In this document: positions 38,447 through 43,718 of the stretch, in pieces
Position numbering within the stretch: the first letter of the stretch is position 1
How the letters are laid out: the number at the start of each line of letters is the position of its first letter
DNA from: Zetaproteobacteria bacterium
GTDB taxonomy: Bacteria; Pseudomonadota; Zetaproteobacteria; Mariprofundales; Mariprofundaceae
DNA length: 43,879 nucleotides
Direction: 5' to 3'
Assembly (NCBI GenBank): GCA_002753275.1
Contig: PEAA01000002.1
Coordinates: forward strand, 106,940-150,818
The notes under the pieces: model-generated
Database searches by the model: none
What the model saw: only the letters and a program-made list of their open reading frames with translations
Told to the model about the DNA's origin: nothing
Translations under genes and position numbers: made by a program

Positions 38447-39835
38447 TTATTGACGCTTTTTCACAATAACACCATCAGGTTGTAGTACCGTTGTCTCAAA
38501 GGTATGGCTAATCGCTGCAACATTTCGTGCGAGTTTCTGTTGATGAATGTTTTGAGGGTCAAAGGTAATATGGGTGACTCCGGAAATTTGTTGAGTAAAC
38601 TTGGCTTGGTCTTCAAGGGCTGGAGGAAGAGGTAAAACATCGCGCCTACAGGCTAATAGTGTGCGTGCCGGCCATTGACTGGCTGCAACAAAGGGGACAT
38701 TGGGATTCTCAGCATCGATTGCGAGCTCTGCAATTAATTGGTCAATGCCATTCTTAAGCTCTTTTTTGTTCACTGCTTGATAATCGCGTAATGCGATCAT
38801 CGAGGTGGTGGCTATGATCATGATCGTGACCAGTGAAATTCCACGCTTTCCGAGAATGCCATTGCTGTTGAGTTGTTGGTTGTAAGAGATGATGACGGGA
38901 AAAATGAGATAAAGTGTCGTGGCATAAAATATAAATGCCCAAGTGTGATCAGGGTTGAAGACCCCAATAATCGACGCAAGTATCAATATAAGTCCCAGTA
39001 GGTCGATGCTCTTTCTCCATGCGTGGATAGAGACTGCAACTCCAAATAGGATCGTAATTGTAAGACCAATGCCCCATCCATCGTGACCATGAACCAATGG
39101 TGAGCCACGCAGGGAATCACTTAATGTGATGAGGAAGTTGGTTGGCGACGATTCAAGTTCATGCCATCCCCAGCGAAGAAATAGGAATAGGGTTGATGCT
39201 GCCATCACAGAGAGGGTCAGGTAGCGTTGTTTGTTGCTCGCGGGTTTGTTGCGCCAAGTTTGCCATGCCAATGCAATAGGAATGGCAAGCCCGAGAGGGT
39301 GGATGGTTACGCAAAGCGCGCTAAGCAAGACGATAAGAAAAAACCAACTAGGAAGTTCTCGTGGAGAGGCATCGAGTGCATTTTTAAGGATCTGTATTAA
39401 GATGAATGCAGCCAAGATATAGATACCTCCACCAATGGCATCGGTTTGCATTAAGGCAATAGGACTAATCATTAATAATCCCGTGGCAATCATCGCAGGT
39501 TCTTCACCATAGGTTGTTTCTGCCCACCGATACATCATCAGCCCTGTACCAAAGAGAATGAGCATCGTGTACACTTTTGCAGCCGCTAAGCTTCCAGCCC
39601 AATGTAAATCGAGAGGAACAAAAATAATTGCCCGTAGATCGGGAACACCATACATGCCAACGGGGCTGGCAATCTGGTGTATGATTGACCAGTTCAACAG
39701 CAATGCATGCGCAGCGCCTTCTTCAATTCCAAGAGCATCGTAACGAAATAGCGCCATGTAAATCCACGCTAAGATGCAGAGCGCAGCTAGGCCTAAGTGT
39801 CGTGGAGCAATAGCATTTTTTATGGAGTTTATCAT
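38447..39835 (-). CDS. Polytopic membrane protein, possible GT-C glycosyltransferase-like
   Basis: A 462-residue protein with about ten hydrophobic helices (first about 15-30, last about 330-350) and a C-terminal soluble domain of about 110 residues. The first loop carries GIEEGAAHALLLNW, which recalls the acidic loop motif of GT-C enzymes such as ArnT and PMT, but the usual Asp-Glu is Glu-Glu here and no other family motif is certain. Such enzymes use polyprenyl-linked sugars at the periplasmic face. AGGA lies six bases before the ATG. It stands alone between nsrR and its own terminator. Function is an inference. Confidence 0.6.
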   Translation of the reverse strand: MINSIKNAIAPRHLGLAALCILAWIYMALFRYDALGIEEGAAHALLLNWSIIHQIASPVGMYGVPDLRAIIFVPLDLHWAGSLAAAKVYTMLILFGTGLMMYRWAETTYGEEPAMIATGLLMISPIALMQTDAIGGGIYILAAFILIQILKNALDASPRELPSWFFLIVLLSALCVTIHPLGLAIPIALAWQTWRNKPASNKQRYLTLSVMAASTLFLFLRWGWHELESSPTNFLITLSDSLRGSPLVHGHDGWGIGLTITILFGVAVSIHAWRKSIDLLGLILILASIIGVFNPDHTWAFIFYATTLYLIFPVIISYNQQLNSNGILGKRGISLVTIMIIATTSMIALRDYQAVNKKELKNGIDQLIAELAIDAENPNVPFVAASQWPARTLLACRRDVLPLPPALEDQAKFTQQISGVTHITFDPQNIHQQKLARNVAAISHTFETTVLQPDGVIVKKRQ

Positions 39836-39905: not shown

Positions 39906-40349
39906 CTATTTTTGCGTTGAGGAGTGTAGAATTTGAATGATCTGTTCGGGTTGATTTAATGCATCGGCCAATGTGTGTCGATCAAGAACATCCATGAAGG
40001 CTTTTCTTGCCTGGAACAGTACATGCTTGAGAGAACATGGTGCAATGATAGGACATGTGTTGGTCTCTTTGTCGAAGCATTCTAAAATATTCATGTGGGG
40101 TTCGGTTTCCCGAACCAATTGGCCAATATTGATCTCTTTCGGAGGTCGTGCCAATTGCATCCCTCCATTTTTCCCTCGTGTTGTTGAGATCCATTCGCCT
40201 TGCCCAAGTTTGTGTACCACCTTTACAAGATGGTTGCGCGATATTCCGTATGCCGTAGAGATTTCAGTGATTGTACAACGCTTCTCTGGATGAAGGGCGA
40301 GATAGAGGAGGACGCGCAATGTATAATCGGTGTAGAGGGTTAGCTGCAT
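39906..40349 (-). CDS. nsrR: Rrf2-family transcriptional regulator, NsrR-like
   Basis: Iron-sulfur repressor of the NsrR type, known to sense nitric oxide. A winged helix (TITEISTAYGISRNHLVKVV) is followed by three cysteines, 91, 99 and 105 (ECFDKETNTC, then PIIAPC). Asp8, a fourth cluster ligand in Streptomyces NsrR, is also present. The C-terminal CSLKHVLFQARKAFMDVLD run resembles NsrR more than IscR. The first two cysteines are two residues further apart than usual. MQLTLYTDY matches the family start; a TTG two codons earlier is possible. It diverges from the globin cluster, so control of those genes is likely. Confidence 0.88.
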   Translation of the reverse strand: MQLTLYTDYTLRVLLYLALHPEKRCTITEISTAYGISRNHLVKVVHKLGQGEWISTTRGKNGGMQLARPPKEINIGQLVRETEPHMNILECFDKETNTCPIIAPCSLKHVLFQARKAFMDVLDRHTLADALNQPEQIIQILHSSTQK

Positions 40350-40355
40350 CTCCAA

Positions 40356-40395
40356 AAGATATATTAGTTTGACATCATTTGTCCAGTGGTATTAA
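40356..40395. promoter_or_regulatory. Divergent nsrR/globin promoters with candidate NsrR operator
   Basis: On the plus strand TTGACA (40369-40374) with TATTAA (40390-40395, spacing 15) could drive the globins. On the minus strand TGGACA (40380-40385) with TATATC (40358-40363, spacing 16) could drive nsrR almost without a leader. AAGATATATTA-G-TTTGACATCAT (40356-40378) has the 11-1-11 layout of known NsrR sites; the left half fits the consensus AAGATGCATTT at eight positions, the right half poorly. A protein bound here would cover both promoters. Confidence 0.4.
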
Positions 40396-40452: not shown

Positions 40453-40818
40453 ATGAGTACAGTATACGAACAGTTGGGTGGCGAAGCTGCCATCAATGCA
40501 GCAGTTGATCTTTTTTATCGTAAGGTTCAAGGCGATGCATTTATCAATCGTTTTTTTAAGGGCGTAGACATGTCTCGTCAAGCGTCAAAACAGAAAGCAT
40601 TTTTGACCATGGTGACTGGTGGTCCTAATAGCTATACTGGTAAAGATATGCGTGAAGGTCATCGCCATTTGGTGAAAATGGGTCTGAACGATGCACATTT
40701 TGACCATGTGATTGCCCACTTGCGTTCAACCTTAGCGGAGCTTGGCGTTGGTCAAGATTTGATTGATACCGTGATAGGTGTTGCTAACAGCGTTCGTAAT
40801 GATGTGTTGGATCGTTAA
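40453..40818 (+). CDS. glbN: Group I truncated hemoglobin (soluble, single domain)
   Basis: A 121-residue 2/2 hemoglobin of the TrHbN/GlbN group, a class known to convert nitric oxide to nitrate with bound oxygen. It starts TVYEQLGGEAAINAAVDLFY, has B10 Tyr22, a Lys-Gln-Lys stretch on helix E, the FLTMVTGGP turn, and the proximal heme ligand His70 in MREGHRHLV followed by LNDAHFDHV. GGAGG precedes the ATG. It is the first gene divergent from nsrR and is followed after three bases by the membrane-anchored double globin, so the two are probably co-transcribed. Confidence 0.95.
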   Translation: MSTVYEQLGGEAAINAAVDLFYRKVQGDAFINRFFKGVDMSRQASKQKAFLTMVTGGPNSYTGKDMREGHRHLVKMGLNDAHFDHVIAHLRSTLAELGVGQDLIDTVIGVANSVRNDVLDR

Positions 40819-40821
40819 GTT

Positions 40822-41688
40822 ATGCATTTAGAGACATTTATTCCAGCATTTTTGCTGTTTGCGGTATTTGGCTTTATCTTGCCGTTATGGCTTTCAGGAT
40901 TGGCAGACCGTGGACGCATTCATCAGAAATTTGTTGCGCCTGAAAAAGAGAAAAGTCTTTATGAGAAGCTTGGTGGAGATGCTGCGGTTAATGCAGCTGT
41001 TGATCTTTTTTATCGTAAGGTCTTGGCTGATGCTTATGTCAAAGGCTTCTTTAAAGGTGTGGATATGTCACGCCAGTCGGCGAAGCAAAAAGCTTTCTTA
41101 ACCATGGTGTTTGGTGGCCCTAGTAAATATACTGGTAAAGATATGCGCGAAGGTCATCGTCATTTGGTGAAAATGGGCTTGAATGATTCTCATTTCGATC
41201 ATATTTTGGTTCATTTGCGTTCAACCTTGGCTGAGCTTGGTGTCGGCGAAGATTTGATTGCACAAGTTGCTGCGCTTGCAGAAACAACCCGTGATGATGT
41301 GCTTGATAAAGGCGCGGGATCATCGTTGTCTTTGTATGAGCAGTTGGGCGGCGATGGTGCTGTGAATGCTGCTGTAGATCTTTTCTATCGCAAAGTTCTT
41401 GCAGATTCGCATGTTAAAGACTTTTTTAAGGGTGTCGACATGTCTCGGCAGTCAGCAAAACAGAAAGCATTTTTAACGATGGTTTTTGGCGGTCCAAGCA
41501 AATATACAGGAAAAGATATGCGTGAAGGGCATAAACATTTGGTGAAAATGGGCTTGAACGATTCTCATTTTGATCATATTTTGGTGCATTTGCGTTCAAC
41601 CTTGGCTGAGCTTGGAGTGGGTGATGATTTGATTGCTCAAGTTGGTGCTTTGGCAGAAACGACGCGTGGGGATGTTCTTAATAAGTAA
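40822..41688 (+). CDS. Membrane-anchored tandem double truncated hemoglobin
   Basis: A 288-residue fusion: an N-terminal membrane helix (about 5-27), a short basic linker (28-44), globin domain A (45-163), a six-residue joint, and globin domain B (170-288). Both domains keep the heme ligand (His112, His237) and B10 tyrosine (Tyr64, Tyr189). By eye they match at 109 of 119 positions. The positive charges after the helix predict that both globins face the cytoplasm. I know of no standard family with this architecture. It would place two heme centres at the inner membrane, where NO reacts with respiratory oxidases; that role is inferred from the nsrR neighbour. Confidence 0.92.
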   Translation: MHLETFIPAFLLFAVFGFILPLWLSGLADRGRIHQKFVAPEKEKSLYEKLGGDAAVNAAVDLFYRKVLADAYVKGFFKGVDMSRQSAKQKAFLTMVFGGPSKYTGKDMREGHRHLVKMGLNDSHFDHILVHLRSTLAELGVGEDLIAQVAALAETTRDDVLDKGAGSSLSLYEQLGGDGAVNAAVDLFYRKVLADSHVKDFFKGVDMSRQSAKQKAFLTMVFGGPSKYTGKDMREGHKHLVKMGLNDSHFDHILVHLRSTLAELGVGDDLIAQVGALAETTRGDVLNK

Positions 41689-41754
41689 GAAATGCTTGCC
41701 ACGATCAACCGTGGTGATATTCTAGCGGCAGATATTGCTTCTGGGAGGATTCTT

Positions 41755-41862
41755 ATGCATTTTGAAACATTTTTGCCTGCATTCCTAATGTTTGTCGCTT
41801 TAGGATTTGTGCTACCTTTGGTATTGTCAGGTATTGCTGATAAGGCACGAAACGGTAAATAA
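41755..41862 (+). CDS. 35-residue membrane peptide, stand-alone copy of the globin anchor
   Basis: The product starts MHFETFLPAFLMF and ends SGIADKARNGK, one membrane helix with a basic cytoplasmic end. It is clearly homologous to the first 31 residues of the double globin (MHLETFIPAFLLF, then SGLADRGR). The GGGAGG ribosome site six bases before the ATG is strong. The frame is open to an ATG at 41692, but that start has only a weak site. It lies 66 bases after the double globin and ends at a strong terminator, so it is the last gene of the globin operon. It could dimerise with the anchor or mark the same membrane partner. Confidence 0.8.
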   Translation: MHFETFLPAFLMFVALGFVLPLVLSGIADKARNGK

Positions 41863-41929: not shown

Positions 41930-42916
41930 ATGGCGGATAATGTTTATCAAAAAGCGATTGATCAAAGAGGGCTGAAAACCTTGGTTGTTTGGTTAGGTTG
42001 GCTCATCTCATCGGTGGCTGTGTTTGCACTGTTATATCGTGATGCGGATATGTTGCAGTTTGTGATGCAAGATAAGACACGAATGACTTGGGTGATCTTG
42101 GGTATGTTTTTTCTAGGAGTGTTGATTAGTTTTTATCATGTGAGCATTTTGACCGCCGAGTGGTTTCGCGCCTACCGATTGGAGGGGCGTATCAAGGAGC
42201 AGGGGTTGCTCTCGATGAAGTCGGATTATGGGCATCGCTGTGTCGATTGTTATTTAAATTCACTTCGCCTGGTTCTTGAGAGGAGTGGCCCTCTGGATCT
42301 TGAGGGGCTTGCTGCTGTTGAATTTGCTGGCCAGCGTCGGATGAGTCAGTTTGTTGGATTGATTGGTAATCTTCTGATTACACTGGGGTTAATTGGCACC
42401 GTGTTTGGCATGACGCTCATTATGACGGGCTTAAATGGTGCACTCAATGCGATTGGTGAAGATCAACATCAAATGATTGACAGTTTGAGTCGGGCGATGT
42501 CGGGGATGGGGATTGCTTTTTATACAACGCTGCTTGGTTCAGTTTTGGGTGGGATTTTGTTGCGGGTGTTTGCGTGGATTACAGATGCATCCGTCGAGAG
42601 TTTGCAAGATAAAATGGTTCGGGCTGTGATGGTGTATGGTGCAAGCGATTTGAATCCGCTTGCAGATCAAGAGATGAGGACGCGAGAGCGTGAGTTAGGC
42701 CACTTGCAGAGCCGCGCGGAGTTAACGAAGATTGCCTTGGAGGCGAGTCGGCAAGAGATGGAGTCGCTCACAGAAACCATGGAGAAGATGCATGCTACCA
42801 TTAAAGAGGCGGCTGCAGATGACTCGATGTATAAGTTGGCAGCACAGCATGCCAAATATGTGCGCTCGGTGAGTCTTTGGGGTCGTATTTTAGATCGCAA
42901 TCGAAATAAACAGTGA
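41930..42916 (+). CDS. MotA/TolQ/ExbB-family proton channel protein
   Basis: A 328-residue inner-membrane protein with four hydrophobic segments (about 17-36, 54-75, 142-167, 190-216). The third carries LGLIGTVFGMTL and the fourth GIAFYTTLLGSVLG, the two most conserved parts of the TolQ/ExbB/MotA pore, including pore-facing threonines. A charged coiled-coil-like cytoplasmic tail (about 248-297) follows. ATG 41930 is preceded by TGAGG. Its partner, ten bases downstream, has the TolR/ExbD-like helix. Such pairs use proton motive force to move or rotate an attached domain. It is not a close match to TolQ, ExbB, MotA or ZorA, so no symbol is given. Confidence 0.85.
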   Translation: MADNVYQKAIDQRGLKTLVVWLGWLISSVAVFALLYRDADMLQFVMQDKTRMTWVILGMFFLGVLISFYHVSILTAEWFRAYRLEGRIKEQGLLSMKSDYGHRCVDCYLNSLRLVLERSGPLDLEGLAAVEFAGQRRMSQFVGLIGNLLITLGLIGTVFGMTLIMTGLNGALNAIGEDQHQMIDSLSRAMSGMGIAFYTTLLGSVLGGILLRVFAWITDASVESLQDKMVRAVMVYGASDLNPLADQEMRTRERELGHLQSRAELTKIALEASRQEMESLTETMEKMHATIKEAAADDSMYKLAAQHAKYVRSVSLWGRILDRNRNKQ

Positions 42917-42926
42917 GCTTGTAGTT

Positions 42927-43718
42927 ATGCGTAAAAGTCGTAAGTCTGTTCAAGATAATATCTACGAAATCTTCTCGGATATGGCTTTGTTGATGTTGTC
43001 CGCATTTATTTTTCTATTTGCTGTGATGGTGATTAATACCCAGTTACATAATGGCAGCGGTGGTGGTTCGGATGCTTCACAGCAAGAATTGGAGCAGTTA
43101 AAAGAGTTGCTGGCGGCAGCTGAGTCGCGAAATGAGCGGTTACAAGAAGAGATGGTGATGCTTGCCGGCAGTGATCTGAAGCAGCAGGAAGAGCGGATTT
43201 TAGAGACAGCGGGCTTGTCGAAAGGACAGGGGCGTAAAGATTTTGATCTGTTTGTTAAAGGGTTGCGGGATCTTCCGGGGCCAGATGTTCATCTTCTTGT
43301 TGATGGAACAGGCTCAATGCATGGCGTGACAACATTTTTGATACCTGTATTGCGGGTGATTGCCATTCGCTCAGGGAAGTACCTTTCTGGTGTAACTTGG
43401 TATGCCGATTCGAAGTCGGGTACCTATACTGGCACCATGGGAGAGATGTTTGATCGCTTGATGCAGGAAGCCCCTTTTGTTGGAACTGATGAGACGATTG
43501 GACATGCTTTTCGTGATGTGGCTAAGAATGCGACGGTTCCTGGGGCTTATATCTTGATTGGTGATGAGCCACCCACGGATAAGATTCATTATAGTGAAAT
43601 TCCTGCACCTGTTTTTACATTGCCGTTGGGAGTGGATAATAGCTCGGTGACGAAAGTTGCTTTTCGTAAGATTTCAGACCAAACAGGGGGGCGGATGTTG
43701 CAGCTCCGTTTCGAATAG
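42927..43718 (+). CDS. TolR/ExbD-like single-helix protein with C-terminal von Willebrand A domain
   Basis: A 263-residue protein. A basic start is followed by one membrane helix (about 18-37) with an aspartate at its cytoplasmic edge (Asp18 in FSDMALLMLSAF), the position of the proton-carrying residue in MotB, TolR and ExbD. A coiled coil (about 50-95) follows, then a VWA domain (about 118-263). The metal-site motifs are complete: Asp126-Thr128-Ser130 (VDGTGSM), a threonine region at FVGTDET, and Asp213 in ILIGDEPPTD. The coiled coil and VWA domain should be periplasmic. VWA domains usually bind another protein through a metal ion; the target is unknown. Confidence 0.85.
   Translation: MRKSRKSVQDNIYEIFSDMALLMLSAFIFLFAVMVINTQLHNGSGGGSDASQQELEQLKELLAAAESRNERLQEEMVMLAGSDLKQQEERILETAGLSKGQGRKDFDLFVKGLRDLPGPDVHLLVDGTGSMHGVTTFLIPVLRVIAIRSGKYLSGVTWYADSKSGTYTGTMGEMFDRLMQEAPFVGTDETIGHAFRDVAKNATVPGAYILIGDEPPTDKIHYSEIPAPVFTLPLGVDNSSVTKVAFRKISDQTGGRMLQLRFE

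Follow-up and report, generated by a model that had tools for sequence, protein, structure and literature searches.

An NsrR-like regulator opposite truncated globins with a predicted membrane tether in Zetaproteobacteria

The truncated globins encoded in the stretch of zetaproteobacterial DNA that we analyzed (43,879 nucleotides, hereafter the window) most likely destroy NO at the membrane. Together with their regulator they would form an NO-inducible, NO-scavenging globin module of the dioxygenase type that clears NO at or near the cytoplasmic membrane, a reading drawn from sequence comparison to which we assign a probability of roughly 0.7. The textbook truncated globin is a soluble protein that stands alone, often with no known role or electron donor. 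In the natural cluster described here, such globins are linked to a putative NO sensor, to a reductase of their own, and to the membrane, and this across a class of marine iron oxidizers, so that experiments can ask directly whether the globins of these microaerophiles store O2, assist an oxidase, or act as NO enzymes. Isolates of Mariprofundus with the single-tether form exist, and the effects of tethering and of doubling can be studied on variants that nature provides, namely the tandem that evolved twice and the tether that is replaceable.

Layout of the cluster and the tandem globin

The source genome (1.86 Mb in 55 contigs) has Mariprofundus as its nearest named relatives. In the window, the gene of a 147-aa Rrf2 regulator lies on the minus strand (39906..40349; Pfam Rrf2, 8.8e-37), with its likely start at the ATG at 40349. 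Facing it on the plus strand are the genes of GlbA (40453..40818), a soluble group I truncated globin of 121 aa (PF01152, 3e-19; PDB cyanoglobin, 1.6e-29), and of GlbB (40822..41688), in whose 288 aa a tether helix is followed by two TrHbN domains. The tether segment comprises residues 1–35 (40822..40926) and is defined by a match to the ANC profile and by a homologous free peptide; domain 1 (40951..41310) matches the globin profile with its pocket residues intact, and domain 2 (41329..41685) is 92% identical to it. An earlier note on this DNA, made from the sequence alone, had placed the reading frames of the globin cluster where we found them and had identified their products as TrHbN, in agreement with the matches of GlbA and both GlbB domains to Pfam Bac_globin (PF01152; 69.8 and 133.8 bits against a gathering score of 21), which cover two stretches of GlbB (E 4.5e-39). 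Moreover, each of the 79 zetaproteobacterial domains checked has B10 Tyr, CD1 Phe, E7 Gln, E10 Lys, E11 Gln, and F8 His, so the proximal histidine and B10 tyrosine are indeed kept in all three domains of the window, as the note had read them.

GlbB has one hydrophobic segment (maximum KD19 of 2.38 at residue 6), and the same hydropathy measure found none in GlbA. An AlphaFold model of GlbB, built from an alignment of 12 loci, shows a helix at residues 3–33 and then two truncated-globin folds, with moderate confidence (pLDDT 73). When this model was submitted to Foldseek, the leading matches were all group I TrHbs (6cii, 3aq9, and 1dly; TMt about 0.8), and the best PDB match was THB1 of Chlamydomonas reinhardtii, a globin reported to ligate its heme by a distal lysine and to have NO dioxygenase activity (PMC4304232). 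GlbB is thus predicted to be a membrane-anchored globin with one N-terminal hydrophobic helix ahead of the globin part, and both hydropathy and the model bear out the membrane helix previously proposed for the tandem protein. The fusion of a helix to two TrHbN domains was likewise confirmed by domain search and by AlphaFold.

For a class-wide comparison, we searched 78 zetaproteobacterial genomes for close homologs of TrHbN, which were present in 44 and absent from 34. The usual gene order is a divergent NsrR-like regulator, a soluble globin, a tethered single globin, and a 2Fe-2S/FAD/NAD reductase, followed downstream by multicopper or cytochrome c genes in some cases, the free peptide, sometimes gpmI, and genes for MotA/ExbB-like and VWA-like proteins. 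A tethered globin is found in 35 of the 44 globin-bearing genomes, and the two-domain GlbB in only two of the 78, namely the window genome and G060, whose loci L059 and L009 carry the same helix-globin-globin architecture. The two domains differ by a dN of 0.068 and a dS of 1.54 in the window (at 92% identity) and by a dN of 0.036 and a dS of 0.57 in G060; both pairs are under purifying selection, that of the window strongly so. In the globin tree the window domains are sisters (support 100/99) and both G060 domains fall inside the tethered clade of Mariprofundus (99/96), which indicates that the doubling occurred twice independently. We also considered a sequencing or assembly artefact, and discarded it because the window domains differ at saturated synonymous sites and a second genome has the same architecture independently. 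In the class, a single tethered globin is the norm; the tandem form is uncommon and evolved on two occasions.

Some observations concern the surroundings of the cluster. Next to the regulator, the window encodes a 462-aa multi-helix protein (38447-39835) that resembles a glycosyltransferase by eye and neighbors NsrR in many relatives; a Pfam search with it returned no match. In genus g11 (loci L083, L085, L079, L091, and L094 of G056, G052, G058, G063, and G064), the globins and their MEQQ-type anchors resemble those of genus g4, and from this likeness a horizontal transfer of the entire cluster is probable. Locus L094 encodes a single soluble globin (L094:7960-8319) with a GlbB-like C-terminal half, which looks like the outcome of a GlbA/GlbB recombination with the tether deleted.

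Regulator, operator, and the link to NO

The regulator carries D8 and the cysteines Cys91, Cys99, and Cys105, as read from its sequence. NsrR was its best named NCBIfam model and RirA the second, and since the NsrR score (138 bits) is below the equivalog cut-off of 182 bits, we call the protein NsrR-like. In the gap between regulator and globins we identified a conserved promoter/operator, AAGATATATTAGTTTGACATCATTTGTC (40356..40383, plus strand), with a putative NsrR-like half site overlapping the −35 box TTGACA. The block AAGATATATT-N3-TTGACA is held at a constant distance in nearly all relatives; with three mismatches allowed it occurs in 30 of the 78 genomes, at one site each except for two in G059, and the reversed control block was found in 0 of the 78. 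The published NsrR consensus is gATGyAT-N5-ATrCATc (PMC1274295). Positions 40358-40376 agree with it at 11 of 14 positions, a score that, taken within the window only, does not exceed chance (8 matches against 10 expected), so it is the conservation that counts for the operator. The NsrR linkage claimed earlier stands on this class-wide conservation and on the divergent Rrf2/NsrR-like gene that faces the globins.

Where the globins are missing, the regulator changes partners. In four genomes without globins (G045, G049, G053, and G054) the genes opposite this regulator are those of Hcp and a ferredoxin-type reductase, and two others (G057 and G020) have a heme-copper oxidase/NOR-like set with SCO in that place. 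Established targets of NsrR include Hcp and nirK (PMC1274295), and genes for NirK-like proteins and cytochromes adjoin the regulator or the cluster in some relatives; one of them (L067:2240-3190) matches 4kns with 8.7e-100. We take 4kns to be the NirK of Nitrosomonas europaea. The link of the cluster to NO appears strong on this account, as the conserved operator marks the locus and the regulator of relatives without globins has Hcp or a heme-copper oxidase as its partner instead; the same two lines of evidence favor the NO role that the note had proposed. In globin-less genomes of the Mariprofundus group (loci L184, L185, L187, and L189), the same NsrR stands opposite Hcp and an MmoC-like 2Fe-2S reductase. 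At L067:1098-6311 and similar loci, genes for a NirK-like protein, a two-domain multicopper oxidase, and cytochromes c lie beside the NsrR-globin cluster in an arrangement that resembles Nitrosomonas ncgABC-nirK. A search of the window genome for the multicopper oxidase gene adjacent to NirK gave no match.

In the mechanism that we propose, NsrR bound to the operator overlapping the −35 box would block transcription, and NO, by destroying the Fe-S cluster of NsrR, would release GlbA and GlbB. GlbA would act in the cytosol, and GlbB would be held by its single N-terminal helix with the N terminus out and the C terminus in, an orientation predicted from the positive-inside rule that would leave its globin domains in the cytoplasm. 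NO crossing the membrane would then meet the O2-loaded heme of GlbB and be converted to nitrate, after which, in most relatives, the 2Fe-2S/FAD/NAD reductase of the same operon would re-reduce the heme. The doubled GlbB of the window may function more like a trap of high capacity.

In another explanation, the globins of this microaerophilic iron oxidizer would gather O2 at the membrane and pass it to the oxidases. Zetaproteobacteria are microaerophiles, a membrane tether would suit this function, and it was one option of the earlier note as well as the reading favored in a 2013 genome paper on iron-oxidizing bacteria (PMC3770913). That paper puts it in broad terms for the trHbN of such bacteria, lists three of them in M. 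ferrooxydans PV-1, and attributes a possible terminal-oxidase role to the trHbN of the relative ES-1. We nevertheless consider it unlikely, as the control by NsrR and the swapping of its partner to Hcp or a heme-copper oxidase point elsewhere, O2 carriage needs no dedicated NADH-type reductase in the operon, and 34 of the 78 genomes are without close TrHbN homologs. Moreover, the invariant E10 Lys, if it is a heme ligand, would oppose simple O2 storage. The regulator and the neighboring genes give this explanation no support either, and the suggested location next to respiratory oxidases found no support, in that nothing in the operon or in the globin-bearing relatives points to an oxidase partner.

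Reductase, tether, and free peptide

The weak point of the proposed NO-scavenging role is the electron donor. A Fer2-FAD-NAD reductase gene lies 3′ of the globins at 35 loci of relatives, and the window operon has none, GlbB being directly followed by the free peptide. The earlier note was right about the globins and NsrR, and missed both the usual reductase of the operon and the single-tether norm. The only good homolog of the reductase in the window genome is on contig C16 (52% identity), downstream of a glycosyltransferase and with no globin nearby. The idea that it is a relocated copy of the operon gene found no support, as it groups weakly with the copy of the globin-less G020 (93/59) and outside the operonic clade. 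The window genome has lost the operon reductase, by which NO control and a dedicated reductase were uncoupled, and the reduction of the globin heme would have to come from the C16 paralog or from another donor. A globin-reductase NO dioxygenase system encodes the cognate reductase with the globin, and its absence from the window operon is the main weakness of that label for the window's own cluster.

The free peptide (41755..41862, plus strand; 35 aa) is a membrane peptide of the ANC type that starts at the ATG at 41755, behind GGGAGG, and not at 41692. It belongs to no known family in Pfam, NCBIfam, or PDB. It had been counted as a member of the globin unit; it is instead an independent conserved gene that goes with the downstream genes of a MotA/TolQ/ExbB-like protein (41930..42916, plus strand; PF01618, 3.3e-8), its usual neighbor, and of a single-helix protein (42927..43718, plus strand) without a Pfam match, whose VWA-like reading comes from its DGTGSM motif only. 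The peptide also precedes (gpmI)-MotA-VWA at globin-free loci (L099-L102 and L106-L108), and is present in f3 (G077), whose only globin is soluble; on these grounds we discarded the idea that it is a leftover of the duplication. The MotA/ExbB-like protein is found in 42 of the 78 genomes, with the VWA-like gene adjacent at nearly all loci. At 41930-43718 of the window, the helix of the single-helix partner carries an Asp at its beginning (FSDMALLMLSAFIFLF). The pair is of the motor type with a VWA-like domain, and it is conserved alongside the globin cluster. A defence-system reading of MotA/VWA was set aside, since there were only weak ZorA matches and none for VWA.

The tether of GlbB is recognizably a homolog of the free peptide, which matches GlbB residues 1–32 at 66% (E 2.5e-8, genome-level search). 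Among the 35 genomes with a tethered globin, 33 have a peptide-like tether and the other two (G059 and G061) an unrelated helix, so that tethering itself seems to be selected. Within a genome, the tether and the free peptide agree better than permuted pairs do (84% against 46%, p<=5e-5), also within the MH type (81% against 66%, p<=5e-5) and the MEQQ type (p<=0.0015); the own match ranks first in 19 of 27 genomes, the window being the worst at rank 6. Recent gene conversion was rejected as the cause because codon identity is barely raised (0.47 for own and 0.43 for cross pairs); older gene conversion may lie behind the match. The match hints at a shared docking partner. The tether could be a captured copy of the free peptide, both being matched by plugging into one membrane complex, possibly with the MotA/ExbB-like and VWA proteins, a doubtful reading in our opinion. 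If true, the NO-induced globin would be docked on a machine of the proton-channel type rather than being a free membrane NO dioxygenase.

A further step would make GlbB a redox or NO/O2 sensor that docks through its tether on the complex of free peptide and MotA/ExbB-VWA and modulates it. The match of tether and free peptide within genomes, in both the MH and the MEQQ types, is what it would predict, as is the unrelated tether of G059 and G061, which are without MotA and the peptide. Globin and MotA/VWA also co-occur (39/5/4/30), in raw counts that ignore kinship and are uncorrected for phylogeny; the window pair matches poorly, and in f2 genomes the peptide, the globins, and MotA are on different contigs. 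We regard such a sensor as quite improbable. Least probable of all, and barely credible to us, is a peroxidase or general heme/ROS defence under a regulator that senses Fe-S stress and not NO: peroxidase activity is reported for another TrHb (PMC4319818), the Rrf2 family includes iron and ROS sensors, and RirA scored second, but N-oxides are what Hcp and NirK, as partner genes, indicate.

Comparison with known systems

The globins of the cluster share their fold, B10 Tyr, E7/E11 Gln, and F8 His with the group I TrHbs cyanoglobin, THB1 of C. reinhardtii, and HbN of Mycobacterium tuberculosis. They also share the lysine at E10 with THB1, whose distal lysine we take to occupy that position. Those proteins are single and soluble, unlike GlbB with its predicted single-helix tether and, in the window, two domains in series. 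The search of open-access papers returned no description of a tandem or membrane-anchored bacterial TrHbN, and the tethered, doubled form appears to be undescribed so far. In a sample of 399 genomes of the phylum, we found no tethered TrHbN outside Zetaproteobacteria and eight genomes with single untethered ones. A separate contig scan worked with short near-identity patterns, which bring only close relatives within reach. Outside the class, a TrHbN genome (G218, L178:4420-6545) has an Rrf2 regulator and a similar 2Fe-2S/FAD reductase near its globin; this module is possibly convergent or transferred.

Cable bacteria also have TrHbN domains, one or two per chain, in the pentaheme cytochrome fusions published as lPHCtX (PMC11976967); these, however, are exported multiheme fusions proposed to be oxidases, with neither a tether helix nor NsrR. 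Loci L026, L028, and L025 in our data are multiheme cytochromes of cable bacteria fused to one or two TrHb domains. With ncgABC-nirK of N. europaea and hcp-hcr of enterobacteria, both controlled by NsrR, the cluster shares the regulator family and, in relatives, neighbors of the Hcp and NirK types, whereas the effector here is a pair of truncated globins. The flavohemoglobin Hmp is likewise an NsrR-linked globin, and its FAD/NAD reductase has a counterpart in the operon of the relatives. Compared to Hmp, the 2/2 globin and the reductase are separate proteins here, a 2Fe-2S domain is added to the reductase, a membrane tether is predicted for one globin, and the window operon is without a reductase. 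The parts of the cluster are of known kinds, and what is new is the tethered TrHbN, its NsrR-linked pairing with a reductase, and the tandem form.
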